41,694 bases of DNA, taken from positions 1 to 41,694 of the forward strand of contig JAAZNB010000090.1 of NCBI GenBank assembly GCA_012798515.1. The letters run 5' to 3'. This document shows, one piece after another, positions 2,096 through 41,690 of the stretch. The number at the start of each line of letters is the position of its first letter. Positions within the stretch are counted from its first letter, which is position 1. Position numbers and translations under genes: made by a program. Below the pieces are notes generated by a model. That model did not search any database. It was not told where the DNA came from and saw nothing but the letters and a program-made list of their open reading frames with translations. This stretch comes from Chloroflexota bacterium (GTDB lineage Bacteria > Chloroflexota > Anaerolineae > Anaerolineales > Anaerolineaceae).

Positions 2096-3535
2096 TCAGG
2101 GCTCATCATTGGATTCGGCGGCCAGGGCCAGTGCTGAGACTGGTAAAGGCTGCAAGGGGGGCCGGACGGTAAAAGCGCCCAGTGAATCCAAAGTGACCGT
2201 GGGGTCGTCGAGGATACGCTGGATCATTCGGGCGACCCATAGCTCGCAAATGCGCCCCTGGCAGTTCCCCATACCGGTGCGGGTCAGCATCTTCACTTCG
2301 TTGACGCTGCGCGCGCCCATGTGCACCGCTTCCCGGATCTGGCCCAGCGTGACCTCTTCACAGCGGCAGATCACGGTCGTTTCGTCAGGAATGGCTGTCA
2401 GGCCGGGCAGGGGCGCAAACACGTTTTCGAGGAAACGGGCAAAACGCTGCTGGCGTTTCAGAGCCGGTTGGATGCGCTGGTAGGCCGTGTTCAACTGGCC
2501 GTCGCTGATCTGTTGCAGTCGCTGGGCGACGGCCAACCCGGCCACCTGCCCCTCGAGCCGCGCCAGCTCGGCACCACCGATGCCGGCCGCGTCGCCGACC
2601 ACGAACAGGCCGGGCAGCGTGGTTTGGAAGATCTTATCCCGTTCAGGTATCCAGCCTGTCTGGCCCTGGCGCTGGATGTGTTTGCAACCCAACATGCGGC
2701 TCAAGCCTGTATTGGGGATCAATCCAAAACCGGTGATGATCGTGTCCACTGCGAGGGTCTCTTGACTGCCCGGAATAGGATGCCCATCCGGGCTCAGGCG
2801 AGCAATAACTGCTTCTTCGACGCCCGTATCCCCGTGGGCAGCCACGACCGACCAGCCCAGGCGATAGGGCGTCCGGGAGCGCAGCATGGCGTAGCTATAC
2901 TCTCCACCTTCGGCCATCCGTCCCCACTGCCCCCAGGCAGCGGGCAGGTTGCGCAGCCCATTCCACACCGGTTGGGAGGATTCCAAAACGGCGGCAACTT
3001 CGACCCCGGCATGGATCAGCTCGGCCGCGGTGGCCAGCTGGAGAGGCCCGCTACCCGAAATGAGCACCCGTTGTCCGGGGAAGACGCGTTGATTCTTGAT
3101 CAGACCTTGCGCCGCGCCGGCGGTGAACACCCCCGGCAGGGTCCAACCGGGGAAAGGCAGGGGAAAATCATAAGCGCCGCTGGCGATAATCACGGCGTGG
3201 GCTCGTAGCTGGGCAGGGGCATCGGGGCCGTACAACGCCAGGGTATACAGCGGGTCGTCTGGCCGGGTGAATGCTCCCCAGACCAGGGTGTTGTACAGCC
3301 GCCGGATGGGGGCGCTCTCCACCATGTGGATGAGCAGTTGGGCCTCTTTCTGAACGGAGGTCTTCGTATTAGACCCAGCCTCAAAAGGCTCGGGGAACTG
3401 CTGGTAATACTGGCCGCCGGCCTGCGGGCTGCCATCGATGAGGACAACGTCCACCCCGTATTCTGAAGCAGTTAGTGCTGCCTCCAGGCCGGCCGGTCCG
3501 GCGCCAATCACGGCGAGCTGGATATCTGTGCTCAT
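2096..3535 (-). CDS. FAD/[2Fe-2S] alpha subunit of an opine oxidase/HcnB-type dehydrogenase
   Basis: A 479-residue NAD(P)/FAD-type disulfide-oxidoreductase-fold protein matching the alpha subunit of heterotrimeric opine oxidases, HcnB and archaeal proline dehydrogenase. The N-terminus has the dinucleotide motif GAGPAG. A second Rossmann motif (GSGPLQLA) lies mid-protein, and the FAD-closing motif GDAAGIGGAE is near residue 315. The C-terminal BFD-like domain has Cys390, Cys392, Cys425 and Cys430, suited to a [2Fe-2S] cluster. The start used is the ATG at 3535, which overlaps the stop of the ferredoxin-like gene as ATGA, a sign of translational coupling; a start three codons upstream is possible but less likely. 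It is the last gene of the eight-gene operon and probably passes electrons from the flavin beta subunit onward. The true substrate is unknown. Confidence 0.9.
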   Translation of the reverse strand: MSTDIQLAVIGAGPAGLEAALTASEYGVDVVLIDGSPQAGGQYYQQFPEPFEAGSNTKTSVQKEAQLLIHMVESAPIRRLYNTLVWGAFTRPDDPLYTLALYGPDAPAQLRAHAVIIASGAYDFPLPFPGWTLPGVFTAGAAQGLIKNQRVFPGQRVLISGSGPLQLATAAELIHAGVEVAAVLESSQPVWNGLRNLPAAWGQWGRMAEGGEYSYAMLRSRTPYRLGWSVVAAHGDTGVEEAVIARLSPDGHPIPGSQETLAVDTIITGFGLIPNTGLSRMLGCKHIQRQGQTGWIPERDKIFQTTLPGLFVVGDAAGIGGAELARLEGQVAGLAVAQRLQQISDGQLNTAYQRIQPALKRQQRFARFLENVFAPLPGLTAIPDETTVICRCEEVTLGQIREAVHMGARSVNEVKMLTRTGMGNCQGRICELWVARMIQRILDDPTVTLDSLGAFTVRPPLQPLPVSALALAAESNDEP

Positions 3536-5035: not shown

Positions 5036-5995
5036 TTACTTTTCTTCTCTCTGGTAGGGCGCTCCCGATGCGGCCGGCCAGCTGGCCTTGCCTACGAAGA
5101 GCACCAGGGCTAGTAAAGTGACCACATAAGGGAAGGCAACCATGGCCTGGTAGGGAATGTCCAGGTTCAAAGTCTGCATGCGCAGTTGCAATGCATCGGC
5201 GGTGCCGAACAACAATGACCCGAGAAAGGCACCGACGGGTTCCCATTTGCCGAACACAATGGCAGTATAAGCGATGAATCCACGCCCGCTGGTCATGTTC
5301 TGCTGGAAAGTGTTCAAGACGCCGATGGACAGGAAGGCGCCGGCCAGCCCGGCCAGGAAACCGCAGAACAGCAGGCTCAGGTAACGTACTTTGATGACGC
5401 TGATCCCGACCGTATCGGCTGCATGGGGGTGTTCTCCGACGGCGCGGACTTTGAGCCCCCAGGTAGTGCGATAGAGGACGAACCAGATGGTGGGTACCAG
5501 CAGAAAGGCCAGGTAAACCAGGGGTAAATGGTTGAAGAAGATCGGGCCAAGGACGGGGATATCGCCCAACAGCGGGATCTTCCAAACCGAGAGGGAAGGC
5601 ACCTGAATGACGTTTTGGATGACTTCGCCCGACCCGCCTGAGAAAGCCATCACGTAGAGCAGGCTGGACAACCCGGTGGCGCCCATATTCAAGGCCACAC
5701 AGGTCACGATCTGGTTGGCGCCAACCGATACGGCCATGACGGCGTAGATCAATCCCATGATCAGGCCGAACAAACCGGCTACCAGCAGGCCAACCCAGAC
5801 GTTGTTGGTCAAGCCACTGCCGATGATCCCCCCAATGGTGCCCATGAGCATCATGGACTCCATACTAAAGGTGACCAGGCCGGCCCTTTCGGCAATGATA
5901 CCGCCCATGGTTGCCAGGATGAGGGGTGTCGCCATGCGGACGATGGCAGCATAGAATTCTACGGAGCCAAATATCTGTAACAATTGGTCAAGCAT
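5036..5995 (-). CDS. ABC transporter permease (NupQ/BmpD-like, nucleoside family)
   Basis: A 319-residue very hydrophobic inner-membrane permease of the branched-chain/ribose/nucleoside (BPD_transp_2) family. It shows the characteristic N-terminal ILATMGGIIAERAG block, glycine-rich helices with TIGGIIG, and the conserved GLKVRAVGEHPHAADTVGI cytoplasmic loop that docks on the ATPase. The ATG at 5995 is preferred over a longer open frame because GAGGTG sits 6 nt before it. It overlaps the upstream permease gene by 8 nt. It pairs with that permease to form the channel of the BMP-type importer, and the flavoprotein operon continues directly downstream, implying that the imported molecule is what the dehydrogenase oxidises. 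Confidence 0.93.
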   Translation of the reverse strand: MLDQLLQIFGSVEFYAAIVRMATPLILATMGGIIAERAGLVTFSMESMMLMGTIGGIIGSGLTNNVWVGLLVAGLFGLIMGLIYAVMAVSVGANQIVTCVALNMGATGLSSLLYVMAFSGGSGEVIQNVIQVPSLSVWKIPLLGDIPVLGPIFFNHLPLVYLAFLLVPTIWFVLYRTTWGLKVRAVGEHPHAADTVGISVIKVRYLSLLFCGFLAGLAGAFLSIGVLNTFQQNMTSGRGFIAYTAIVFGKWEPVGAFLGSLLFGTADALQLRMQTLNLDIPYQAMVAFPYVVTLLALVLFVGKASWPAASGAPYQREEK

Positions 5996-7247
5996 GGGAC
6001 ACCTCATCCGCGACAGGTTGGGCTTCGACGCTGGCCTTGTTTTGTTTCGACAGGCGAGCGATCTTCAGCCGGGATTGCAAGTCGATGGTAGTTCCGGCGA
6101 TGGCAAATAAGATGGCGAAGGACTGGATGACGTACACTACCGAGATCGGCACGTGGGAGATGATCTGCATCTTGTTCGCCCCGGCACGCAGCGCCCCGAA
6201 GAACACGGCGCTGAGGAAGGCCCCAACCGGGTGTAACTGGCCGATCAAGGCTACCGGAATGCCGGTGAAACCGGCATCGACGAGGAAATTATCGATAATG
6301 CGATGCTGGGTGCCCAACACCTCGGCTGCCCCGGCCAAGCCAGCCAGGCTACCGCTGATGAAGGCCGTGATGATGATGGTGCGTTTGACGTTGATGCCCA
6401 TGAACTTGGCGGCAGTGGGGTTGATCCCAACGGCGCGGGCCTGATAACCGATGGAAGTCTTGAAGAAAATGATGTAGACGACGATGACGGCAAGGATGGC
6501 CAGTAAGGGAGCCATGGTGATACGACCGATGGCAGGGTTGCTGATCAGGCTCTGATACCAGGCTGTCGATCCGAACAGGTTGGCGACCCAGTTGGCGTTC
6601 AATAAGTGTTCCAGGGAAGGCAGCTCGGCGGCTGCAGCGATGGGCGCCGACTTGGGAAAGGGTTGGGATGGGTCTTTGATGCCTAACCAGTTGACGAAGC
6701 TCCAGGCCATATCAATGCCGCGCATGGGATGGTCGACGCGCAGGCTCCAGGCGAAGAATTGGATGGCGATGTAGTTCAAGAGCAGGGTGGTCAACACTTC
6801 GTTGAAACCGCGTGTGGCTTTCAACACGCCCGGGATCAGGGCAAAACAGGCGCCGGCCAGGCCGGCCGCCAGGAGACAGGCCGGCAGGAGGAGCCAGCCC
6901 GGCCAATCGACGAAGGTGACACCCACCCAGGTAGCGGCCAGGGCGCCCATGAAAAGCTGGCCTTCGGCTCCGACGTTGAAGAAACCGCTGCGGTAACCAT
7001 AAGCCACGGCCAGGCCGGTAAAGGCCAGCGGGGTAAGGCGGATCAAAGTGGTCGCAATGGCTGAGGGGCTGCCGAAGGCGCCACTGAACAAGGCGGCGTA
7101 GGCCTCCAATGGATTCGAGCCCCAAATTGCGATCAAGATACCACTGGCAAAGAATGCGGCCAATATCGCCAGTAACGGGACGAGGATGCTGAAGGATTTC
7201 TCGATGTATTCTTGCCAGAGATTGGTAAAGGAATTTTGTCTTTTCAT
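5988..7247 (-). CDS. ABC transporter permease (NupP/BmpC-like, nucleoside family)
   Basis: A 419-residue permease, the longer of the two membrane subunits in BMP/nucleoside importers. The N-terminus carries one helix (residues about 18-40), and the following GSPSAIATTLIRLTPLAFTGLAVAYGYRSGFFNVGAEGQ region is the family's signature. The coupling loop GYQARAVGINPTAAKFMGI is conserved. An insert of about 45 residues between membrane segments (near residues 180-225, rich in Pro, Ala and Ser) probably faces outside. The start ATG overlaps the ATPase stop as ATGA at 7244-7247, so the two genes are translationally coupled. The charged C-terminus (SRLKIARLSKQNKAS) is cytoplasmic. Confidence 0.93.
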   Translation of the reverse strand: MKRQNSFTNLWQEYIEKSFSILVPLLAILAAFFASGILIAIWGSNPLEAYAALFSGAFGSPSAIATTLIRLTPLAFTGLAVAYGYRSGFFNVGAEGQLFMGALAATWVGVTFVDWPGWLLLPACLLAAGLAGACFALIPGVLKATRGFNEVLTTLLLNYIAIQFFAWSLRVDHPMRGIDMAWSFVNWLGIKDPSQPFPKSAPIAAAAELPSLEHLLNANWVANLFGSTAWYQSLISNPAIGRITMAPLLAILAVIVVYIIFFKTSIGYQARAVGINPTAAKFMGINVKRTIIITAFISGSLAGLAGAAEVLGTQHRIIDNFLVDAGFTGIPVALIGQLHPVGAFLSAVFFGALRAGANKMQIISHVPISVVYVIQSFAILFAIAGTTIDLQSRLKIARLSKQNKASVEAQPVADEVSHA

Positions 7248-8797
7248 TTTACTTGCTCTGTTTCGGGTGTGGATGGGGTTCCAGAATCGATGCGGCGTAC
7301 ACCGGCCATCATTTCACCGATGAGCTGAATATCGGCATCTTTGGCAGATACGATGCCCATGATTTCACCTTCATACATGACCGCAATACGGTCAGAGAGC
7401 GAAAGAACTTCTTCCAATTCGGTCGAGATGAGCAGAATGGCGGCGCCGTTCTTACGCGCTTCCAACATTTCACGATGTACGTATTCGGTTGCCCCAATGT
7501 CGAGGCCGCGGGTGGGCTGTGAAGCGATCAGCAGGTCTGGTTTGCGGCTCAGCTCGCGCGCCAGGACAACTTTTTGCTGGTTTCCGCCGGACAGCAGCTT
7601 GACTTTCAAGTCCGAACCCGGAGTGCGGACGTCGAAATCATGAATGGCCTTATCGACGAACTGGTCGATGACCTTCTCCTTCAAGAAAACGCCGTTGGCG
7701 ATTTCTTTGCTCCAGAAAGTCTTCCCGATCAGGTTTTCTTCGATGGTAAAGTCCATCAAGAGCCCCATGTGTTGGCGGTCAGGCGGGATATAGGAGACGT
7801 TCATCTCCAGGATCTCGCGCGGCGAGCGGTTGGTGGCGTCTTTCCCGTTGACGGTGATCTTGCCTTGACGGCTGGAGCGCATCCCGGCAATGGCATCTGC
7901 CAGCTCGGTCTGGCCATTGCCATCCACACCGGCGATGCCAAAGATCTCACCGTGGCGGATCTCGAAAGAGATATCCTTGATGGCGGTCAGCCCGCGGTCG
8001 TCCTCGGCAATGAGATCCTGGATGGAGAGAACCACGTCACCTTTCTCGACCTCGGGTTTGTCGATGTTCAGGAATACTTCACGGCCGACCATCATGCGCG
8101 CCAGTTCTTGTTTGTTGGTGTCCGCCGTGTCGACGGTGGCCACTTTGTGGCCGTCGCGCAGCACGGTCACCCGGTCGCAAACGGCCATCACCTCTTCCAG
8201 CTTGTGGGTGATGAAGATGATCGATAACCCTTCAGCCACCAGGGTCTTGAGGACGTTGAACAGCTCAACCACTTCATTGGGGGTCAAGACAGCGGTGGGT
8301 TCGTCCAGGATCAACAATTGGGCGTTGCGGTACAGCGCTTTAAGGATTTCGACGCGCTGCTGGATCCCAACTGGCAGCTGCCAGATGAAAGCCTTGGGAT
8401 CGACGTTGAGGTGATAACGTTTGGCGCATTCGCGGATATCACCTTCAACGCTGTTCAAGTCCAGGAAGGGCTCTCGACGAGAAGGCAGGCCCAGGATCAC
8501 ATTTTCGGCCACGCTCAACGGGGGCACCAGCATGAAATGTTGGTGAACCATACCAATGCCCAGTTCGATAGCGTCGCGAGCCTGGTGGATGGTTACTTCG
8601 TTTTCTTTCCAGAATATCTTCCCACTGGTGGGAAGATAAACGCCATACACACAGTTCATTAATGTGGATTTCCCGGCGCCGTTTTCGCCCAGCAGTGCAT
8701 GAATCTCACCTTTGCGGATATCCAGGTCGATATTACTGTTGGCAACGACACCTGGAAATGTTTTAGACAACTTTTCCAGCCGGAGGAGTTCAGTCAT
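7244..8797 (-). CDS. Double-domain ABC ATPase (NupO/RbsA-like)
   Basis: A 517-residue protein with two tandem nucleotide-binding domains that powers the BMP importer from the cytoplasmic side. The first domain has a full Walker A (GENGAGKST near residue 38), a degenerate signature (LPVGIQQR) and Walker B LLILDEPTAVLTP. In the second domain the Walker A reads GVDGNGQTE, lacking the usual Lys, the signature is LSGGNQQK, and Walker B ends SQPTRG, with Ser in place of Asp. This asymmetric pattern is normal for the RbsA/NupO family. The ATG at 8797 has AGGG 9 nt upstream. The gene lies 337 nt after the binding-protein gene, separated from it by a strong hairpin. Confidence 0.95.
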   Translation of the reverse strand: MTELLRLEKLSKTFPGVVANSNIDLDIRKGEIHALLGENGAGKSTLMNCVYGVYLPTSGKIFWKENEVTIHQARDAIELGIGMVHQHFMLVPPLSVAENVILGLPSRREPFLDLNSVEGDIRECAKRYHLNVDPKAFIWQLPVGIQQRVEILKALYRNAQLLILDEPTAVLTPNEVVELFNVLKTLVAEGLSIIFITHKLEEVMAVCDRVTVLRDGHKVATVDTADTNKQELARMMVGREVFLNIDKPEVEKGDVVLSIQDLIAEDDRGLTAIKDISFEIRHGEIFGIAGVDGNGQTELADAIAGMRSSRQGKITVNGKDATNRSPREILEMNVSYIPPDRQHMGLLMDFTIEENLIGKTFWSKEIANGVFLKEKVIDQFVDKAIHDFDVRTPGSDLKVKLLSGGNQQKVVLARELSRKPDLLIASQPTRGLDIGATEYVHREMLEARKNGAAILLISTELEEVLSLSDRIAVMYEGEIMGIVSAKDADIQLIGEMMAGVRRIDSGTPSTPETEQVK

Positions 8798-30931: not shown

Positions 30932-31921
30932 TTATGCTTTTTCTGCCGGCGGAGCGGGCGGGGCAGGCGGAACAGCCCTGGCGGCCTTACGCTTGGCAAA
31001 CCATTTGCGGATGAACACCCACAGGAGGCGCACAGGAATAACGATGATCAATGCCACCGGCACCAGGAAGAGCACCAGCCAGATGGCGGCGTTGGCCAGG
31101 AATTTAAGGGCGTTGATCAGGGCCTGGATGGCATCCCGGGCGACCCCTACCGGTTCCCAGCTGCCAATCGTCAGCGGAGCCACAGCAGCCTGAGACATAA
31201 TGCGAATCGAAATTGCCGAGAGGCTGGAAGCCTCATCGTAGTATTGGATCTGGCCCTTGAGAACTTCGATTTGCTCTTCGATGGAAACCAGCTGGTTGTA
31301 TACCGAGAGCACGTCTTCGGTGCGATTGGCCGAGGCCATGATCTCGCGCAGTTGGGCATCGGCCTGTTCCAGGTTGCGTAGCCGGGATTTTAGATCGGTG
31401 TACTCGCGGGTGACATCCTGGCCGGAAACGTTTTCCGAGCGAATGTCTTGAGTGGGATCTTCTACCAGGCCTTTGATCTGGTCCATGGCGCTGGTCAACT
31501 GCTCTGCCGGGACGCGCACGGTAATCGACGCTTCGGGGATTTCGACGCCTTCATCGGTGTAGGTTTTGTATAGATTCGAGCTGACGATGAAGCCGCCCAT
31601 GCCTTCGGCCATCTTGCCAATCGAGGCCATGGCTTCTCCCGGGTCGGCGACGACGATGGTGAGATCGGCGTTTTTGATCACCACACGTTCGACGGCGGCG
31701 CCCAAATCGCCGCCGCTGGCTTTATCGGCCATCATGGGCACCGGCGCAGAGGTGGCAAAGGGAGCGGCGTATTCGGCTGAGCTCTCGACCCGGCTTTCGT
31801 CCATCAGGTACATATCTGGGGCGCTGGGGGCAAAATTGGTAGGGCTGGATGCGGACTGGCAGGCGCTCAACAACAGGGTAACGATCAGGATTAGTACGAC
31901 GGGGGCAAGCTTCTTCTTCAT
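30932..31921 (-). CDS. DUF4349 domain lipoprotein
   Basis: A 329-residue membrane-anchored protein. The N-terminus KKKLAPVVLILIVTLLLSAC is a lipoprotein signal with Cys at residue 21. The DUF4349 core runs from about residue 80 to the end, with coiled-coil-prone segments around 165-225 (TDLKSRLRNLEQADAQLREIM). A single membrane helix lies near 285-308, followed by basic residues and a Pro/Ala-rich tail. The start is the ATG at 31921: the GGAGG that serves it overlaps an earlier in-frame ATG at 31936, which has no site of its own. Function of the family is unknown; an envelope role is likely. It ends a minus-strand group, 104 nt after the phosphoesterase. Confidence 0.9.
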   Translation of the reverse strand: MKKKLAPVVLILIVTLLLSACQSASSPTNFAPSAPDMYLMDESRVESSAEYAAPFATSAPVPMMADKASGGDLGAAVERVVIKNADLTIVVADPGEAMASIGKMAEGMGGFIVSSNLYKTYTDEGVEIPEASITVRVPAEQLTSAMDQIKGLVEDPTQDIRSENVSGQDVTREYTDLKSRLRNLEQADAQLREIMASANRTEDVLSVYNQLVSIEEQIEVLKGQIQYYDEASSLSAISIRIMSQAAVAPLTIGSWEPVGVARDAIQALINALKFLANAAIWLVLFLVPVALIIVIPVRLLWVFIRKWFAKRKAARAVPPAPPAPPAEKA

Positions 31922-32025
31922 TTGTTTTTCCTCCATGAGTTCGCTTCTCTACATTTTTGACGCTTGCAGGAAGAAAAAGTTCCGGAGATTGTCCCGGCAG
32001 AGGGTAAAGCGGTACAGACCAGGGG

Positions 32026-32754
32026 CTACCAACCTTGCAGCAAACGCAGGGCGTGGCGCGAAGGCAGCCCGGCTTTGTAGATGCGCTCCTGGACACTGTG
32101 AATGTCGTATTCAACCCGCATGGGTTCCCAGGTCAATTCATCGCTGTGGAAGATAGCAAACGCGGCGCGCGGGTCGTGGTCCCGGGGTTGGCCGACGGAC
32201 CCGGGATTGAGGATGGCGCGACCTTCCAGCTGGAAGACCTGACCCACCGGCGGCATTTTTAAAGTCACTCCGGCCTGGGCATCAGGGCAAAGGTACGCGG
32301 CCGGCAGGTGGCTGTGGCCAATGAAACAAAATTGAGTATCGAAGGCGGAAAAGTTTGCTGCTGCGGTGTTGGTGTCCAGGATGTACTCCCACACCGGGTT
32401 GCGCGGGCTGCCATGCACCAGGGTGACCGGATCGATGACCTTGCGGTTGGGGAGTTCCTCCAGGAATTGAATGCTATCGTAGGTCAGGTGTTCCCGCATC
32501 CAATGAGCGGACTGGCGAGCTTCCTTGTTGAACACTTCCAGGTTGATCTGCCCCAGCGCGGCAGCGTCGTGGTTGCCTACCAGACAGACCAGATTGGGGA
32601 TCTGGCGGATGCGCTCGATGCATTCGTTGGGGTCTGGTCCATAGCCGACGACGTCTCCCAGGCACCAGGCGGCGTCGAACGTCCCGGCGGCTTCCAAAAC
32701 GGCTTCTAGTGCGGTCAGGTTAGCGTGGATATCAGAGAAAACTAAGATGCGCAT
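32026..32754 (-). CDS. Calcineurin-like metallophosphoesterase (YfcE/MJ0936-like)
   Basis: A 242-residue metal-dependent phosphodiesterase. The five blocks are complete: DIHAN near residue 8, LGDVVGYGPDP near 32, GNHDAA near 60, a VHGSPRN His near 114, and GHSHLP near 145. The start ATG at 32754 places the first metal ligand at the usual position; a longer open frame upstream lacks support. Relatives hydrolyse cyclic or bis-phosphodiester substrates, but the physiological one is unknown. It lies 104 nt after the DUF3048 gene and could belong to the same transcription unit. Confidence 0.92.
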   Translation of the reverse strand: MRILVFSDIHANLTALEAVLEAAGTFDAAWCLGDVVGYGPDPNECIERIRQIPNLVCLVGNHDAAALGQINLEVFNKEARQSAHWMREHLTYDSIQFLEELPNRKVIDPVTLVHGSPRNPVWEYILDTNTAAANFSAFDTQFCFIGHSHLPAAYLCPDAQAGVTLKMPPVGQVFQLEGRAILNPGSVGQPRDHDPRAAFAIFHSDELTWEPMRVEYDIHSVQERIYKAGLPSRHALRLLQGW

Positions 32755-32858: not shown

Positions 32859-34013
32859 TTATAGATCGAAATTCAAATTCCAAATTCCGGAAGAACTCTC
32901 TTCCAGAGTGGAATGATCGCCTACCAGCACCAGCCACGTCTTACCCGGTTTCAAGGGCATGGGAAGGCCCCACTGGTCGAAGAACTGCATGGGGCGGTCT
33001 TTTTCTACCGTACGCCACGACCCTGCGATCATCAACCCGTCGCGAAAGAAGAGGGCGCGTTTGCCGGTGGGATTGGGCCATATGGTAATGTCGTGTAGGG
33101 TCTCAGCATATTCGGTATAGGTGGTAAACAGGATGATGATATTGGCGTAGGAAAGCTGCTCACCGGTCAGATAATCGGTCAGGGGCACCATTTCATCTTT
33201 ATCCAGGTTGGATTCTTCCCAACGTAAATACCGGCTGGTTTGTGGATCGTAGCGCCATTCACCGCGGTCGAAAGCACTGTACTCGATGCCCACCTGGATG
33301 GCAAACTGATCACTTTGCGGCGGGTGATCCTCGAAAATCATACCATCCAACTGGGGGAAGTAAGGAGGAATACCGCTCTGCGCAGCGTACTGAGTGATGC
33401 GCGCGGTGTTGGCGTATACCCAGGGGGATTGGTGAGTGTCTTTGGCTCCGCAGATTACCGGGCAGCCGGCTTCCAGATGGGAGATGGCGCGCTCGCCCAG
33501 GGCCTGGATGATAACGTCATCCACGCGCGGGTCGGCGCTGCCGTAAACCAGCAACCCCTGATACAGGTCGACCAGCTGGGCGTCGACCAGGCGGCCGGAA
33601 CGTAACGAGCCGGCCTGTTCCGCGTTTTGACCATAAAAGACGGCCAGGAAGCGGTTCATGCCCTCGCCGATGTAATATTCGAAGACCATGTCGGCAAAAG
33701 ACAGCCCGGATTGGGGCCGCACACTGGGCGGGTAATTGGAAATCTTTACCATCACCGGGCGGCGGTTGAGCAGCCCAGGGTCTGTAACGGGTTGGCCGGT
33801 CAGCGGGTTGGTGCCGGCGCTAAAACCATAAACCCCTACGACACCAGGCGTAGGGGTAGAAATCTGGGATGGGGATACCGCGCGGTCTGCAGAAGCATTT
33901 CCAACCGGCAGAATCCGAGATGAACTCCCTTCCGGCCCGGAGGCGGCGAAAGGGAAGAGCAAGAAGATCAAAAGGACGGCGCGAACCAGCGCATTGTTCA
34001 GGCCAGCAGCCAT
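32859..34013 (-). CDS. DUF3048 (YerB-like) exported protein
   Basis: A 384-residue protein with an N-terminal signal or membrane helix (about residues 9-26), a Ser/Thr/Pro-rich spacer, and two DUF3048 regions. Recognisable blocks are NPLTGQPV (near 70), RPVMVKISNYPPSVRPQSGLSFADMVFEYYIGEGMNRFLAVFYG (from about 84), and the C-terminal GxW-like IAGSWRTVEKDRPMQFFD...LKPGKTWLVLV. The family is common in Gram-positive and Chloroflexota envelopes, and its activity is unknown. The ATG overlaps the coaBC 3' end by 16 nt, so the gene is probably coupled to it. Confidence 0.9.
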   Translation of the reverse strand: MAAGLNNALVRAVLLIFLLFPFAASGPEGSSSRILPVGNASADRAVSPSQISTPTPGVVGVYGFSAGTNPLTGQPVTDPGLLNRRPVMVKISNYPPSVRPQSGLSFADMVFEYYIGEGMNRFLAVFYGQNAEQAGSLRSGRLVDAQLVDLYQGLLVYGSADPRVDDVIIQALGERAISHLEAGCPVICGAKDTHQSPWVYANTARITQYAAQSGIPPYFPQLDGMIFEDHPPQSDQFAIQVGIEYSAFDRGEWRYDPQTSRYLRWEESNLDKDEMVPLTDYLTGEQLSYANIIILFTTYTEYAETLHDITIWPNPTGKRALFFRDGLMIAGSWRTVEKDRPMQFFDQWGLPMPLKPGKTWLVLVGDHSTLEESSSGIWNLNFDL

Positions 34014-35215
34014 TGAACGATCTGCTCCATGATACGGTCGGCAACTTCCTGTTTCGAAAGCAGCGGCAAGGTCTCTTGCCGGCCGCCGGCAAACAGCAAA
34101 GTGACCCGGTTGGTATCCACTTCGAAACCGGCATCTTTGGCCGAGATGTCATTGGCCACAATCATATCCAGGTGTTTGGCTTGCAGCTTGGATTGAGCGT
34201 TGTGTAGCAGATCCTGGCTTTCGGCGGCAAACCCGACCACACAGCGGGGCCCTTCACCGGCGGTGCGCCGGGCAGCTACTTCGGCCAGGATGTCCGTGGT
34301 GGGGGCCAGGTTCAGTTGGGTGAAGCCACTTTGTTTCTTGATTTTCTGATCGGCAAAATCAGCGGGACGGAAGTCGGCTACGGCGGCGGCCATCAACAGG
34401 GCGTCGGCGCCGGCCGTCTCGCGCAGCACGACTGCGAGCATCTCGGCCGCGGTGTGGATCTCCAGGCGATGGGCTCCGCCCGGTGTGGGCAAAGCGTTGG
34501 GCCCGGTGATGAGGGTCACGTCGGCTCCGGCGTCGATAGCAGCCTGCGCCAGGGCAAAGCCCTGTTTACCCGAAGAGCGGTTGGAGATGAAACGCACCGG
34601 GTCGATGGGTTCCTGGGTACCGCCGGCCGTCACGACGATTTTCTTTCTGGCCAGCGGGCCGCCGCGGCTGAGCACGTAGCGGGCGAAGCCCAGGATTTCG
34701 AGTGGCTCGACCATACGGCCGGGACCTACCAGGCCGGAAGCCAGGTGCCCGGAAGCCGGTCCGATGGTGTGGGCGCCGCGTTGGCGTAACAGTTCCAGGT
34801 TGGCCTGGGTGGCGGGATGAGCGTACATGCCTCCATCCATGGCCGGCGCCAACAGCAGCGGGCAGTCCGAAGCCAGGTGGGCCAGGACCAGCAGATTATC
34901 CGCCTGGCCACTGGCCAGCTTGGAGATCGTGCTGGCGCTGGCCGGGGCAACGACGATCAGGTCGGCCGACCGGCCCAGAGTGATGTGCGCCACGTGTCCC
35001 TCGCCGCCCCATAGGTCCTGATCGGTGTAAGCCTTCCGGGAGGTGACGGATTGAAACGTGAGGGGGTGAATGAAGTGCAGCGCGCCCTGGGTGAGGACGA
35101 CGTCTACCACAGCACCTGCCTGGTGGAGTTTGGAGGCCAGGTCGGCGCCCTTATAGGCCGCAATCGAACCGGTGATTCCAAGGATGATGGTTTTGCCGGC
35201 AAACGGGTTAGACAT
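33998..35215 (-). CDS. coaBC: Phosphopantothenoylcysteine decarboxylase/phosphopantothenate-cysteine ligase
   Basis: A 405-residue bifunctional CoA-pathway enzyme: the C-terminal half joins cysteine to 4'-phosphopantothenate and the N-terminal flavoprotein half decarboxylates the product. The CoaC half has GSIAAYK, catalytic H77 (VAHITLGR) and APAMDGGM. The usual Asn of that motif is D127, and the Cys that E. coli uses as acid is S160 (LASGLVGPGRM). The CoaB half carries TAGGTQEPIDPVRFISNRSSGKQG (near 192), AAAVADFRP, KIKK and GFAAES. Both halves are full length. The ATG lies 2 nt after the coaX stop. Variant CoaC residues occur in other phyla, so activity is still expected. Confidence 0.95.
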   Translation of the reverse strand: MSNPFAGKTIILGITGSIAAYKGADLASKLHQAGAVVDVVLTQGALHFIHPLTFQSVTSRKAYTDQDLWGGEGHVAHITLGRSADLIVVAPASASTISKLASGQADNLLVLAHLASDCPLLLAPAMDGGMYAHPATQANLELLRQRGAHTIGPASGHLASGLVGPGRMVEPLEILGFARYVLSRGGPLARKKIVVTAGGTQEPIDPVRFISNRSSGKQGFALAQAAIDAGADVTLITGPNALPTPGGAHRLEIHTAAEMLAVVLRETAGADALLMAAAVADFRPADFADQKIKKQSGFTQLNLAPTTDILAEVAARRTAGEGPRCVVGFAAESQDLLHNAQSKLQAKHLDMIVANDISAKDAGFEVDTNRVTLLFAGGRQETLPLLSKQEVADRIMEQIVQWLLA

Positions 35216-35217
35216 TG

Positions 35218-35982
35218 TCAGTGGTTCAGCTCCCAGATCAAACGAATGCCTTCCAGGGTGAGCCAGGGCGACACGACCTGGATGACCGGCGTCTCCTTAG
35301 CGATGATTTCGGCAAAGCCGCCTGTAGCGATGACTTTCATGTCCGGGCCCAGGGTGTGTGAAAAGCGCTCCACCATGCCCTCCACCATGGCTACGTAACC
35401 GAACAGCAGCCCGGATTGGATGGCGTGCACGGTATTGCGACCGATCACCGCCGGCGGGCGCTGAATGTCCACACGGGGAAGCTTGGCTGTGCGCTGGAAG
35501 AGCGCCTGGGTGGCGATGCCGATGCCGGGAGCGATGGCCCCGCCCAGGTAGCCGCCTTCTTCGGTGATGGCGTTGAAGGTGGTAGCGGTGCCGAAATCGA
35601 TAATGCAGGCCGGCCCGCCGTGGTGGTGCAATACGGCAACCGCATCGGCGATACGATCTACGCCCACGGCGTTCGGCTCTTCGTACAGGATTTCCAGATC
35701 GAACTTGAGACCGTGATCGATGACCAGGGCATCCAGTTTGAGGTATTGTTTTATCGCTTTGACGATCCGGCCCGTCAGGGGCGGGACGACCGAAGCGATA
35801 CATACCCCCTGGATCTGTTCGATGGAGGTGCCGCTGTTCTGGAGTAAGCCGAGCATTTGCAGGCCGTATTCATCGGGCATACGGTCGTGATCGGTTGCCA
35901 GACGCCAACGCGAGCCCAGGGTCTTGCCTTCGTAGAGGCCCAGGGTCAGGTTGGTATTGCCAATATCGATGGCCAGTAGCAT
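35218..35982 (-). CDS. coaX: Type III pantothenate kinase
   Basis: A 254-residue CoaX kinase that phosphorylates pantothenate, the first step of CoA synthesis. The N-terminal LLAIDIGNTNLTLG is the ASKHA phosphate-1 motif. GVDRIADAVAV and DFGTATTFNAI contain the catalytic Asp and the phosphate-2 loop, and GGAIAPGIGIATQALFQRTAKLP the substrate lid. The ATG at 35982 is chosen because it gives the standard CoaX N-terminus; a TTG at 36006, right after the upstream stop codon, would add eight residues. Its neighbours are the homocysteine methyltransferase-MTHFR gene and coaBC, spaced so closely that they must share an mRNA. Confidence 0.95.
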   Translation of the reverse strand: MLLAIDIGNTNLTLGLYEGKTLGSRWRLATDHDRMPDEYGLQMLGLLQNSGTSIEQIQGVCIASVVPPLTGRIVKAIKQYLKLDALVIDHGLKFDLEILYEEPNAVGVDRIADAVAVLHHHGGPACIIDFGTATTFNAITEEGGYLGGAIAPGIGIATQALFQRTAKLPRVDIQRPPAVIGRNTVHAIQSGLLFGYVAMVEGMVERFSHTLGPDMKVIATGGFAEIIAKETPVIQVVSPWLTLEGIRLIWELNH

Positions 35983-36006
35983 GCGTTTTCCCGTAAGGTT
36001 AATCAA

Positions 36007-37887
36007 TCAGGTCTCTGCTTTGAGGATGGGTTGGATACTTTCGATGATTTCAGCGGCGTAATCGAAGCGGTTGAAGGCCGGCATGATGTAGACGCCTTGG
36101 GCAAAAGCGTGTATCTGCTCTACTAATTCTATCGCAATTTCGATCCCCGTCCGGGCTGGTTTTTCGCCGGCCTGTTCCATGCGGTACAGGATCTCCTCCG
36201 GGATGATGATCCCGGGGACTTCATGATGCAAGAACCGGGCGTGACGGGCGCTGGCCAGGGGCAGGATTCCTACCACCACGGGGACATTGAGCGGGCCATT
36301 CTCGGACTCGTAATGCTTCAAGAAATCCCGGGCGCGCTGCAAGTCGTACACCGGTTGTGAGAGCACAAAGTCGGCTCCGGCGCGCAACTTGCGGCGCAGG
36401 TTCTTGATCTCCTGGGCCGGGTCTGGCGGGTTAAGATTGAGGGCACATCCCACCAGGAAAGAAGTCGGCTGCCCGATGTTCGAGCCGGAGTGGTCGACGC
36501 CGGCGTTGAACCCCTGTTTGATCAACTTGATCAACCCGGAGGGGACCAGGTCATAGTTATCCATGGCTTCAGGGTAATCCCCGATGGCGGTGGGGTCGCC
36601 CATAACGACAAACACATTGCGTACCATCAGGGCGTGGGCGGCCAGCAGGTCTCCCTGGACGCGCAGCAGATTGCGCCCGCGGGTGGGAAAATGCAGCACC
36701 GTTTCCACCCCAACGTTGCGCTGGATCAGGTCGCACACCGCCCAGGGACTCATGCGCATGCGCGCCATGGGGCTATCCGCGACGTCGATCACGTCTACCC
36801 CGGCTTCAGCCAGCATGCTGGCCCCGGCCAGCAGCTTGTGGGTGGACAGGCCCCGCGGTGGGTCCATCTCTACCGCGGTGACGAACTTGCCGGCGGCTAG
36901 TTTCTGCGCCAGGCGGGTGGGCTGTTCGGCGGAAGAGATGTCTACCGGTTCGGGGGTACGCAGGCTGGGGCCGTTGAAGGTAGAGGACGCTTCGGCGTTT
37001 TCCATGGCGCTGCACATGGCGGCGATATGGCGGGGAGTCGTACCGCAGCAGCCGCCGATGACCCTGGCCCCGGCCTGCCAGAACAAGGGCGCATATTCGC
37101 CAAAATAATCCGGGGCATCCGGGTACATGATGCGCCCACTGACCTGTTCAGGCCAGCCGGCGTTGGGCATGGCCGAGAACAAAGCTTCGGGTACGGCCTG
37201 GCGCATTTGCTTCAAGATGCGTAATACCTGATTGGGCCCGCCGGAGCAATTAACCCCGATGACGTCTGCCCCGGCTTCTTGCAGCCAGTGGGCCACGCGG
37301 CGGGGGTCGTCGCCCAACAAGGTGCGATCGTCGCGGGTGTAAGTCATCGAGGCCAGGATAGGCAGGTGGCCGGCAGCCTGGCGAGCGGCCTGAATGGCCT
37401 CGCGAATCTCGTACAGGTCGGTCATGGTCTCGATAATGAACAGATCTACGCCGGCCTCGGCCAGGGCGCCGGCCTGTTCCAGAAAAGCCTGGCGGGCCTC
37501 TTCGGGCTGTACACGGCCAAACGGCGAGAGACGGACTCCCAACGGGCCGATGTCACCGGCGATGAATACGTTTTGGAAAGAAGCCAGAACGACGCGCCGG
37601 GCCAGCTCGACCCCGGCACGATTGATCTCGGCCACTTTGTCCCCCAGGCCAAAACGTCCCAGCTTGTACCGATTGGCGCTGAACGTGTTGGTCTGGACGA
37701 CCTCGGCTCCGGCGTCGATGTACTCACGGTGGACTTCGCCGACCAGGGCAGGTTGGGCCAGATTGAGCTCGTCAAAACAGTGGTTAAACTCGACGCCGCG
37801 CTGGTTGAGCACGGTGCCCATGGCGCCATCGAACAGCACCGGTCGGGTTTTATTGTGTAAATAGTGCAGAAAACCTTGCTCACTCAT
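36007..37887 (-). CDS. Homocysteine S-methyltransferase / methylenetetrahydrofolate reductase fusion
   Basis: A 626-residue bifunctional protein like Bacillus YitJ. The N-terminal domain (about 1-295) is a zinc-dependent homocysteine methyltransferase, with FDGAMGT, GVNCSGGP and GGCCGTTP carrying the Zn-binding Cys residues. The C-terminal domain (about 325-610) is a flavin-dependent MTHFR that makes 5-methyl-THF, with VEMDPPRG, the FMN/FAD-side VFVVMGDPTAIGDYP, and LSQPVYD. It can both produce methyl-THF and transfer methyl to homocysteine from some donor. The methyl donor of the first domain is not known. The ATG lies 11 nt after the metH stop and there is no terminator between, so the two are co-transcribed. 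Confidence 0.95.
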   Translation of the reverse strand: MSEQGFLHYLHNKTRPVLFDGAMGTVLNQRGVEFNHCFDELNLAQPALVGEVHREYIDAGAEVVQTNTFSANRYKLGRFGLGDKVAEINRAGVELARRVVLASFQNVFIAGDIGPLGVRLSPFGRVQPEEARQAFLEQAGALAEAGVDLFIIETMTDLYEIREAIQAARQAAGHLPILASMTYTRDDRTLLGDDPRRVAHWLQEAGADVIGVNCSGGPNQVLRILKQMRQAVPEALFSAMPNAGWPEQVSGRIMYPDAPDYFGEYAPLFWQAGARVIGGCCGTTPRHIAAMCSAMENAEASSTFNGPSLRTPEPVDISSAEQPTRLAQKLAAGKFVTAVEMDPPRGLSTHKLLAGASMLAEAGVDVIDVADSPMARMRMSPWAVCDLIQRNVGVETVLHFPTRGRNLLRVQGDLLAAHALMVRNVFVVMGDPTAIGDYPEAMDNYDLVPSGLIKLIKQGFNAGVDHSGSNIGQPTSFLVGCALNLNPPDPAQEIKNLRRKLRAGADFVLSQPVYDLQRARDFLKHYESENGPLNVPVVVGILPLASARHARFLHHEVPGIIIPEEILYRMEQAGEKPARTGIEIAIELVEQIHAFAQGVYIMPAFNRFDYAAEIIESIQPILKAET

Positions 37888-37898
37888 AAAATTATCCG

Positions 37899-40800
37899 TT
37901 ACGACTGGCCCATCGATTTGACCAACTGTTCGATGCGTGTCTCACCGATGTTGTAATATTTCGCCTGCGGGTGGTGCAGGGTGATGGCGGCCGTGGACTG
38001 CTCGGGGACGAGCTGGAAGGCCGGGGTCAACTGCATCCCCAGGTCGCGCTCGGCCGGCAGCAGCTGGAACACTTTTTGGTGATCGTCCAGGTCAGGAATG
38101 GCGGGGTAACCCCAGGAATAGCGTTTGCCTTGCTCGGCTTCCAGGCCTAATTCGCGGCGCACGTGTTGGTGCAGGTAATCGGCGGCGGCTTCGGCCATCT
38201 GTACGGCCAGGCCGTGGGTGAAATAGGCTTCGCTGTAATCACCGGCTTCTTGCAGGCGTTCAAAGCGCCGGCTGGCTTCTTCGCCAATGGTCACAATCTG
38301 GAAAGCGGCCACGTCCATCTTCCCGGACTCGACCGGGGCGAAGTAGTCGGCCAGGCAGAGGAATTCTCCACCCGCCTGGCGGGGGAAGGTGAAGCGCATC
38401 CGTTCGACCGGGGCGCCGCTCTGCACGGATTCGGGCTCATAGATCAGCAGGTCGTCGCCCTGGGATTGGACCGGCCAGTAACCATAGATGCCCTGGGGGA
38501 ACAGCCAGGGATCCTTTTGGGCCTGGCGGCGCATCTGGTCCAGGCGCTGTTCATATTCTGCTTGCAGCTTTTCCCAGGCTTCACCGTGGGTGTTCTTGGC
38601 GCCCCACGACAGGCGGAACAACTCGTTCTTGGCCAGGTGTTGGAAGACGATCTCCAGCGGCATCTGGCGCACCAGACGGGGCCCGTAATGGGGTGGGGAG
38701 GGAATGCGACCGGCCGGCAGCACCGAGGAGTGCCGCGCACCGGCGTTGGAAGCGGGAGCTGTGCGCATCTTGCGCCCCAATTCCATCTCGGACTCCTGGC
38801 GCATACGCTCGTTCAATACCTGGCGCTGCTCGGGATGGCTCAGCTGGTCCATGGTTTCCAGCCCTTCGAAAGCGTCCTTGCAATAGAATACCCCTGCCGG
38901 GTAGAAAGCTTCCTGGTCGGTGAGCAGAATGCGGCGCCCAAAACGGCGGTTGATGGCGGCGCCGCCGATCAGGACGGGGAAATCCAGCCCGCGGCGGTGC
39001 AGCTCGTTGACGATGAGGGGCATTTGTTTGCTGGTGCTGACCAGCAGGGCGCTCAGGCCGATGGCGCTGGCGTGCACTTCGACCGCCTTGGAGATGATCG
39101 TCTCGGCCGGCACCTGTTTGCCCAGGTCGATTACGTCGTAGCCGTTGTTGGAGAGGATGGTTTTCACCAGGTTCTTCCCGATGTCGTGTACGTCGCCGTA
39201 CACGGTGGCCAGCACGATCAGGCCCTTGCTGGTGCCTTCCTTGCGTTCCAGGTAATTTTCCAGGTGGGCCACAGACTTCTTCATCACCTCGGCGGACTGC
39301 AGGACGAACGGCAGGATCAGCTCGCCGCTACCGAAGCGGTCGCCGACCTCCTTCATCGCAGGGAGCAGCACGGTGTTCAAAACTGTCACTGCGGTGTCCG
39401 ATTTCTTGGCCTGGGGATCGCGGGCGAGAATCTCGTCGATATCCTGCTCGACGTTCTCTTTCTGGCGATGCAAGATGCGCCAGTGCAGGCGCTGTTCGGG
39501 GCTCATTGCCTCCAGCTCGGCCTGTTGGTGGTCGGTTTTGGCCTGGGGCGTACCGGCGCTGTTCTGGAAATATTCGATCAGGCGCTGCAGCGCGTCTGGG
39601 TGGCGATAATAGATCAGGTCTTCGGCCAACTGGCGCTCTTCGGGAGAGATGTCGGCGTAGGGGGTGATGTGGGCCGGGTTGACGATGGCCATATCCAGCC
39701 CGGACTGTACGGCGTGGTAGAGCATGATGCTGTTGAGCACGGCCCGCGCGTTCTGTGCCAGGCCAAAGGACACGTTACTCAGGCCCAACGAAGTCAACAC
39801 GCCCGGCAAGGCAGCCTTGATGCGGCGGATGCCTTCTATCGTCTCGATGGCCGACAGGTTGAACTCGGCGTCGCCGGTGGCCAGGGTGAAGGTCAGGTCG
39901 TCGAAGACCAGGTCTTCGGGGCGCAGGCCGTATTGGTTGACGGCCAGGTCGTAGATGCGCTGGGCCACCTCAAGTTTGCGATCGGCGGTTTTGGCCATGC
40001 CTTGCTCGTCGATGGTCAGGGCGATCACGGCGGCGTTGTATTTCCGGGCCAGGTCGAGGATGCGTTCGGCTTTGGCCGGGCCGGCCTCCAGGTTGATGGA
40101 GTTGATCAGGCAGCGCCCGGGGGCCGTCTTGAGCGCCGTTTCGATCACCTCGACCTCGGTCGAGTCGATCACGAAGGGCGCCGATACCACCGGGGAGAGG
40201 GCTTTGATCACCCGCTGCATGGTTTCGGATTCGTTGGCCCGTTCAGTCAGCGCCACGCACAGGTCCAGGCCATGGGCGCCGCGATCGACCTGCTGGCGGG
40301 CGATGGTGAGGATGTCATCATAGGCCTCGGCCAGGATCAGTTCCTTGAATTTGCGGCTGCCCTGTGTGTTGAGACGTTCTCCGATGAGGAACGGCCGCGG
40401 CTCTTGCAGCATGGGCACGGCCTGGATGGATGAGGCCAGGTTGGGCGTAGCCGGCAGGGACACGTGCTGGCGAGGCCGCCCATGGACACTGTCTACCAGG
40501 GCGCGCAGATGTTCGGGTGTGGTGCCGCAACAGCCACCGATCACGCTGACGCCAAATTTGTCGACGTATTCGGTCAGCGCATCCGCGAAGGGTTGGGGCT
40601 CCAACGGATAAACCGCCTGGCCATCCACGTTCAAGGGCAGGCCGGCGTTGGGGATGCAGGAGACCGGCAGGTGGGCGTGCTCACCCAGGTATTGGATCGG
40701 GTCGCGCATGTAATCCGGCCCGGTGGAACAGTTCAGCCCGACCACGTCGATAGGCATGCCTTCCAGAATGGCCAGCACGGCGGAAATGTCGGTGCCCAGC

Positions 40801-41432
40801 AGCATACGCCCGGTGGTGTCCAGCGTGACCTGGGCCTGAATGGGCAGGTAGATACCCGTTTCGGTGAAGGCTTGCTGCAAGCCGGTGATGGCAGCTTTGA
40901 CTTCCAGGATGTCTTGTGAAGTTTCGATCAACAACACGTCCACGCCGCCTTCGATCAGGCCACGCGCCTGCTCACGGAACACATCGGCCAGATCGTCGAA
41001 AGTGACGTTTGAGAGCTCGGGATCGCTCATCGAGGGCAGCTTGCCGGAAGGGCCGATGGAACCGGCGACGAAACGGGGCTGCCCGTTATGGCTGTATTCG
41101 TCCGCCAGGCGGCGCGCCAGGCGGGCAGCCTGCTGGTTGATCTCGATCACCTGATCTTGCAGGCCATATTCGGCCATGGTGATGCGATTGGAGCGAAAGG
41201 TGCAGGTCTCGACCACGTCGACGCCGGCTTCATAGAAAGAGCGGTGCACGGCTTCCACCGCCTGCGGGTAGCTGATTACCAGGTAATCGTTACAGCCGAC
41301 CGTGCGGGCGCCACCAAACTCTATCTCGCCCAGGTTCATCTTTTGCAGGCTGGTGCCCATGGCGCCATCGTAGATGAGGACGTTGTGGTTGAGGTGGTCC
41401 AGGTAGCGGCGGTTGGTATATTTTCTTGCCAT
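37899..41432 (-). CDS. metH: Cobalamin-dependent methionine synthase
   Basis: A 1177-residue MetH that transfers methyl from 5-methyl-THF to homocysteine through cobalamin. Domains in order are the homocysteine-binding barrel (about 1-310; GLNCSTGP and GGCCGTTP zinc Cys), the pterin-binding barrel (about 330-610; ERLNTQG...), the cobalamin cap and Rossmann domain (about 650-860; H749 in DVHDIG is the lower axial ligand, GGAAINRRFG follows), and the AdoMet-binding reactivation domain (about 920-1177; RYSWGYPAIPDLDD near 1105). All key residues are present. The ATG at 41432 is used because GGAGAG lies just upstream and the longer open frame runs into the riboswitch. It opens the operon with the MTHFR fusion, coaX, coaBC and the DUF3048 gene. 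Confidence 0.97.
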   Translation of the reverse strand: MARKYTNRRYLDHLNHNVLIYDGAMGTSLQKMNLGEIEFGGARTVGCNDYLVISYPQAVEAVHRSFYEAGVDVVETCTFRSNRITMAEYGLQDQVIEINQQAARLARRLADEYSHNGQPRFVAGSIGPSGKLPSMSDPELSNVTFDDLADVFREQARGLIEGGVDVLLIETSQDILEVKAAITGLQQAFTETGIYLPIQAQVTLDTTGRMLLGTDISAVLAILEGMPIDVVGLNCSTGPDYMRDPIQYLGEHAHLPVSCIPNAGLPLNVDGQAVYPLEPQPFADALTEYVDKFGVSVIGGCCGTTPEHLRALVDSVHGRPRQHVSLPATPNLASSIQAVPMLQEPRPFLIGERLNTQGSRKFKELILAEAYDDILTIARQQVDRGAHGLDLCVALTERANESETMQRVIKALSPVVSAPFVIDSTEVEVIETALKTAPGRCLINSINLEAGPAKAERILDLARKYNAAVIALTIDEQGMAKTADRKLEVAQRIYDLAVNQYGLRPEDLVFDDLTFTLATGDAEFNLSAIETIEGIRRIKAALPGVLTSLGLSNVSFGLAQNARAVLNSIMLYHAVQSGLDMAIVNPAHITPYADISPEERQLAEDLIYYRHPDALQRLIEYFQNSAGTPQAKTDHQQAELEAMSPEQRLHWRILHRQKENVEQDIDEILARDPQAKKSDTAVTVLNTVLLPAMKEVGDRFGSGELILPFVLQSAEVMKKSVAHLENYLERKEGTSKGLIVLATVYGDVHDIGKNLVKTILSNNGYDVIDLGKQVPAETIISKAVEVHASAIGLSALLVSTSKQMPLIVNELHRRGLDFPVLIGGAAINRRFGRRILLTDQEAFYPAGVFYCKDAFEGLETMDQLSHPEQRQVLNERMRQESEMELGRKMRTAPASNAGARHSSVLPAGRIPSPPHYGPRLVRQMPLEIVFQHLAKNELFRLSWGAKNTHGEAWEKLQAEYEQRLDQMRRQAQKDPWLFPQGIYGYWPVQSQGDDLLIYEPESVQSGAPVERMRFTFPRQAGGEFLCLADYFAPVESGKMDVAAFQIVTIGEEASRRFERLQEAGDYSEAYFTHGLAVQMAEAAADYLHQHVRRELGLEAEQGKRYSWGYPAIPDLDDHQKVFQLLPAERDLGMQLTPAFQLVPEQSTAAITLHHPQAKYYNIGETRIEQLVKSMGQS

Positions 41433-41485
41433 GATGTCTCTCCGGTAGCGGCAGAAAGCGTTTGAAGGGCTTTCCGCCCTGGTGG

Positions 41486-41514
41486 TTAAATAAAAATCCT
41501 CTCGGGAGAGAGGC
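41486..41514 (-). terminator. Riboswitch-controlled terminator upstream of metH
   Basis: CCTCTC/GAGAGG (41498-41503 with 41508-41513, 4-nt loop) followed on the minus strand by ATTTTTATTT. It lies between the SAM aptamer and metH. The GAGAG at the 3' end of the aptamer P1 can pair with the CUCUC of this stem, giving an alternative antiterminator. Confidence 0.85.
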
Positions 41515-41527
41515 ATAGACTGCGCAG

Positions 41528-41636
41528 CACTCTCATCTTCCAGGAAATCGTCGGGATTTCCTGCCGGAATTGGCACCGCACTCGCGGTTGCCGAGGTTTC
41601 ATTGGGCCGGTCCCTCCACCTCTCTGGATGAGCTTC
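41528..41636 (-). ncRNA. SAM-I (S-box) riboswitch
   Basis: On the minus strand the sequence has the S-box signature: P1 CUCAUC (41627-41632) with GAUGAG (41532-41537), then AGAGAGGUGGAGGGAC with the kink-turn, CCCAAUGAAACCUCGGCAACC, GGUGCCAAUUCC, and a P4 hairpin GGAAAUC/GAUUUCC. With SAM bound, P1 forms, the downstream terminator folds and metH and the following genes are turned off. It lies about 96 nt upstream of the metH start. Confidence 0.95.
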
Positions 41637-41661
41637 AAGGACAATTTTGTTCCTGGCAAAA

Positions 41662-41690
41662 ATTCTACCACATTAGTAATAATTGTCCAA
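41662..41690 (-). promoter_or_regulatory. Promoter of the metH operon
   Basis: TTGGAC (41685-41690) and TAGAAT (41662-41667) are 17 bp apart on the minus strand, in an AT-rich stretch. The predicted transcription start, near 41655, lies some 20 nt before the riboswitch aptamer. Confidence 0.75.

Follow-up and report, generated by a model that had tools for sequence, protein, structure and literature searches.

SAM-I (S-box) riboswitches that join an aptamer to a terminator act as OFF switches, since bound SAM favours the terminator. The methionine operons that they lead are the closest described systems to the locus reported here, which has the same RF00162 aptamer, the same terminator platform and the same metH and MTHFR cargo, with coaX and coaBC added to the downstream string. 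The adjacency of coaX and coaBC is itself shared with other coaX-coaBC pairs; what sets this pair apart is its placement behind metH and a riboswitch. The riboswitch itself is ordinary; the genes that it leads are an unusual set, and a conserved one.

SahR is a protein regulator that responds to SAH. In some genomes, SahR regulons of Proteobacteria include panC of pantothenate synthesis, according to the available text of PMC4239095, and are thus an earlier case of a different regulator that connects the methionine cycle with CoA precursors. As is proposed for the present locus, a methionine-cycle regulator reaches a step upstream of CoA, but that regulator is a protein rather than a riboswitch, its target is panC rather than coaX-coaBC, and the phylum is a different one.

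The excerpts of open-licence literature returned by our search contain no report of SAM-riboswitch control of coaX or coaBC. The main text of a survey of SAM riboswitch-regulated genes that includes five Chloroflexi genomes has, in the form available, no word beginning with "pantothen" and names no CoA genes with the Chloroflexi SAM riboswitches (PMC3766115). In the available passages of PMC5670726 a pan motif precedes panBC, and a SAM riboswitch precedes methionine genes as a separate case; in those of PMC6925170 coaX and metH occur only in a gene list. The accessible part of a review (PMC12570885) describes type III pantothenate kinases as lacking feedback inhibition by CoA, so that there is scope for regulating their expression instead.

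The riboswitch-led gene string of the window

The window, meaning the whole stretch of 41,694 nt that was analysed, comes from a Chloroflexota bacterium of the Anaerolineaceae (assembly GCA_012798515.1, contig JAAZNB010000090.1, positions 1-41,694). An earlier note on this DNA had proposed that a promoter and an S-box lead metH, a methyltransferase-MTHFR fusion gene, coaX, coaBC and a DUF3048 gene, and the RF00162 score together with Pfam and NCBIfam matches bears this out (Table 1). The aptamer is complete (model positions 1-108 are covered), is the sole Rfam family member that gathering scores pick out in the window, and reaches 106.5 bits when scored against a model of 15 sites, the window site among them. 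Consensus scans of the window are at chance level for both promoters (3 found vs 2.8 expected) and terminators (10 vs 9.0), and the case therefore rests on how well the aptamer scores and on what is conserved in relatives.

Table 1. Predicted features of the metH-coaX-coaBC locus, in window coordinates
Feature	Position	Strand	Basis
Promoter-like site, TGGACA-16-TAGAAT, extended -10 TG	41662..41689	-	Similar sites before the riboswitch in relatives
SAM-I riboswitch aptamer	41530..41634	-	RF00162, 83.8 bits vs gathering score 44.4
Riboswitch intrinsic terminator, CCTCTC-TCCC-GAGAGG then ATTTTTATTT	41498..41513	-	Rule-based match
metH, cobalamin-dependent methionine synthase, 1177 aa	37899..41432	-	TIGR02082, 1138 bits
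Homocysteine S-methyltransferase / MTHFR fusion, 626 aa	36007..37887	-	NF006396, 680 bits
coaX, type III pantothenate kinase of 254 aa (ATG start)	35218..35982	-	PF03309, NF009855
coaBC, 405 aa	33998..35215	-	TIGR00521, 406 bits vs cut-off 220
DUF3048 protein, 384 aa	32859..34013	-	PF11258, PF17479 (Pfam only)
Metallophosphoesterase, conserved tail gene, 104-nt gap before	32026..32754	-	PF12850; follows in relatives
DUF4349 protein, conserved tail gene	30932..31936	-	PF14257; follows in relatives

The coaX product scores above its family cut-off (NF009855, 307 bits vs 233), and coaBC carries both of its domains (PF02441 and PF04127). The DUF3048 gene has no NCBIfam match, and the N-terminus of its protein looks hydrophobic by eye. 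The genes are closely packed, with gaps of 11 nt between metH and the fusion, 24 nt between the fusion and coaX and 2 nt between coaX and coaBC, and a 16-nt overlap of coaBC with the DUF3048 gene, as the earlier note had stated in giving gaps of 11 nt or less after metH apart from an uncertain 24 nt at coaX. That uncertain stretch proves to run from the fusion stop to the ATG at 35982, which is taken as the coaX start because homologs align from there; a TTG at 36006, in frame and leaving a 0-nt gap, was rejected on the same alignment. The metallophosphoesterase and DUF4349 genes are perhaps carried on the same transcript as the metH string.

Among 29 riboswitch leaders, a rule-based terminator is found in 21 and none in 8, and the 5' arm is of the CCTCTC type in most. 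Folding gives some hairpin in all 29, and the strongest hairpin is not the terminator in L095, L100 and the window; in the window leader it is a different one lying downstream of the terminator. An analysis of antiterminators gave mixed pairing partners and was set aside as evidence. SAM binding and SAM-dependent termination are predicted for the window element, which, judged by its riboswitch family and its terminator, would be an OFF switch. Transcription attenuation may be over-represented in Chloroflexi, according to the available part of PMC2258182, which fits the terminators of these leaders.

As a separate observation, 8/29 leaders, L064, L065, L076, L082 and L089 among them, have after the aptamer a second copy of 8 nt or more from its 5' portion (ATCCAGAGAGG, for example), as if the 5' arm of the terminator could pair with either copy; the window leader repeats just 6 nt, which does not exceed what shuffles give.

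Conservation of the gene order and departures from it

Among 147 genomes of the same family, a SAM riboswitch is found in 137, a coaX match in 88, the fusion gene in 96 (threshold 1e-100) and PF04127 in 69 (threshold 1e-20). Sixty of the 88 coaX loci were retrieved, leaving out 28; the sixty were mostly the best-scoring ones, so the sample leans to true orthologs. In six of them the coaX match is a distant paralog (42-45% identity) beside which no coaBC was seen; with these six set aside, 54 remain. The earlier note had called for a check of whether coaX-coaBC follow metH in relatives, and they do so widely: in 38/54 loci coaX follows the fusion or metH on the same strand at a distance of 700 nt or less (taken from metH in L058, L061 and L069), and 26 of these 38 have a riboswitch before metH. 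As to the rest of the 38, eight end at a contig edge before the upstream region, L084 has a partial metH match only, and an intact riboswitch is absent from L069, L071 and L099. The 16 loci outside the 38 comprise five with 1.5-1.9 kb or a DUF3048 gene in between, one cut by a contig end, and ten in which coaX is unlinked. Within the pair, coaX and coaBC are adjacent and often overlapping (40 nt or less in 52/54 family ortholog loci, those not cut at coaX). With the window included, riboswitch-led operons number 27, in 18 genera, and chance adjacency of the metH block and coaX-coaBC was rejected on this retention of the order with the riboswitch. In L071, whose operon is the same as that of L010, a decayed SAM riboswitch (3002-3110, 23.4 bits) stands before an intact metH-fusion-coaX-coaBC operon.

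The departures take several forms. In genus g29 (L091, L094, L101, L104) coaX-coaBC stand apart from metH, in the company of the phosphoesterase and DUF4349 genes, and riboswitch, metH and fusion remain together elsewhere (L138-L141). In genus g23 about 1.9 kb separates the fusion from coaX at the three loci with metH in view (L074, L075, L079), none of which has a riboswitch match before metH; in L075 this interval (5837-7788) holds two ORFs, the 470-aa one of which resembles a membrane protein by eye. In genus g40 the gene after the fusion is coaBC, without coaX (L145; from coordinates also G140, G141 and G144). Where metH and fusion lack an adjacent coaX, a riboswitch was present in 17/17 retrieved loci, which is not a fair rate since some were chosen where the riboswitch was already listed; the same tail genes follow metH and fusion in 12 of these 17.

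A second family of the same order, with 23/25 coaX loci retrieved, shows part of the arrangement. There coaX trails the fusion by no more than 700 nt in 10/23 loci, the riboswitch model matches in 5 of the 8 loci in which the metH start is visible, and both features occur in four (L122, L129, L131, L137), with about 0.7 kb between riboswitch and metH in L122 and about 2.3 kb between metH and fusion in L129; coaBC was not found beside coaX in any of the 23. The string of riboswitch, metH, fusion and coaX in this second family suggests that the link may be older than the family of the window. In the remaining families of the order coaX looks mostly unlinked, from coordinates glanced at and uncounted, and in a wider search of 51 named coaBC loci, many from other families and phyla, a metH block stands beside coaX-coaBC only in L010, from a MAG, where no riboswitch was found at gathering score.

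Shared or separate transcripts

In linked loci with a riboswitch (n=25), the gap between fusion and coaX is 3-110 nt, with a median of 20, and that between coaX and coaBC has a median of -4 nt, often an overlap; in two further loci the gene next to coaX is metH itself, 75 and 666 nt away. For L068 the value between metH and fusion (-1869) is an artefact of stop finding and is omitted from the count. With a generic sigma70 matrix and a shuffle p of 0.05 or less, a site is found in 20/26 regions before the riboswitch vs 1/27 before coaX. A second matrix, trained on 29 riboswitch promoters, finds none in 25 regions within 300 nt before linked coaX and none in two more (L058 and L086), against a background of 0/402 windows in metH. 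The same two matrices find a site before unlinked coaX in only 3/10 regions (generic) and 0/10 (trained), from which it follows that weak promoters escape both scans, and that the negative of the trained matrix before linked coaX is weak evidence. On these results it is unlikely that any promoter before coaX equals the riboswitch promoter in strength, though a weak one may be there. The earlier note had held that a strong internal promoter would count against its reading: almost none appears in the scans, and many weak ones would go undetected by them.

Two transcripts would arise if coaX and the genes beyond it had their own promoter within the last part of the fusion gene. We think this highly improbable, although one good promoter match does occur before coaX, in L067, and terminator-like sites lie between the methionine and CoA blocks in 3/39 loci (L058, L085 and L086), those of L058 and L086, both linked and with a riboswitch, being strong. 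At the window itself the gap is 24 nt, the sigma70 matrix gives no site in the 120 nt before coaX more than 4.8 (shuffle p 0.57), and the rule-based scan finds no terminator between fusion and coaX. Very probably, then, the CoA genes share the SAM-attenuated transcript, because the order is conserved, the gaps are short and promoter or terminator signals between the blocks are few; on this comparative footing the single transcript under S-box control that had been proposed is well supported.

SAM and the supply of CoA

We favour, with fair though not high confidence, a single polycistronic mRNA carrying metH, the fusion, coaX, coaBC and the DUF3048 gene and controlled by a transcription-attenuating SAM-I riboswitch, with joint control of methionine and CoA steps. 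At low SAM, transcription would read through, and methionine synthesis and the steps from pantothenate to phosphopantetheine would rise together; at high SAM, the aptamer would be stabilised, the terminator would form, and the whole string would fall to a basal level. Two more riboswitches were found in the window genome, one before metA and one before metK, and the metH switch is therefore part of a normal methionine regulon. A sulfur amino acid rationale may underlie the link of CoA genes to the S-box.

The window genome shows a single match for coaX and a single one for PF04127. No CoaA is found above cut-off, the sole TIGR00554 match scoring 30.8 bits vs 235, and a search with PF03630 (type II kinase) gave no match, as did its controls. 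The assembly is 97.75% complete with 8.96% contamination and lies in 768 contigs, so a missing copy of a CoA gene is possible. If co-transcribed with metH, the only pantothenate kinase and CoaBC found would drop at SAM excess, and the cell would pay a high price for turning off its one pantothenate kinase whenever SAM is high, unless read-through were substantial. The CoA genes could instead share the transcript and escape its regulation, with basal read-through or a weak internal promoter keeping CoA nearly independent of SAM. CoA is needed at all times, coaX-coaBC lie away from metH in 10/54 loci, weak promoters are missed by the scans, and coaX-coaBC share the operon tail with DUF3048, phosphoesterase and DUF4349 genes, for which we know of no role in sulfur metabolism. 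The conserved short gaps and the scarcity of promoter and terminator signals between the blocks speak against such an escape, which we judge unlikely while still a serious contender. That CoA synthesis is lowered at high SAM accordingly stands as a qualified expectation, with possible weak promoters and read-through, the unlinked loci and the lack of a coaBC match in about half the family weighing against it. It is doubtful that SAM serves in this family as a dedicated control signal for CoA synthesis, making CoA output depend on sulfur amino acid status in place of the CoA feedback inhibition that type III kinases reportedly lack.

Elsewhere in the family, 78/147 genomes, for example G004, G005 and G007, have no PF04127 (CoaBC) match at 1e-20, some of the 78 being about 99% complete, and in G007 a coaX paralog is present with the CoaBC match absent. 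None of ten family genomes tested, seven of them without a PF04127 match, has CoaA above cut-off. The genomes without a CoaBC match may depend on imported CoA precursors.

If the favoured reading is right, a well-studied riboswitch class would control a central cofactor pathway, a link new to the open-licence papers searched, in so far as their available text extends, and this control would sit in a lineage whose type of pantothenate kinase reportedly escapes feedback by CoA. In these bacteria, CoA supply may follow methionine status.
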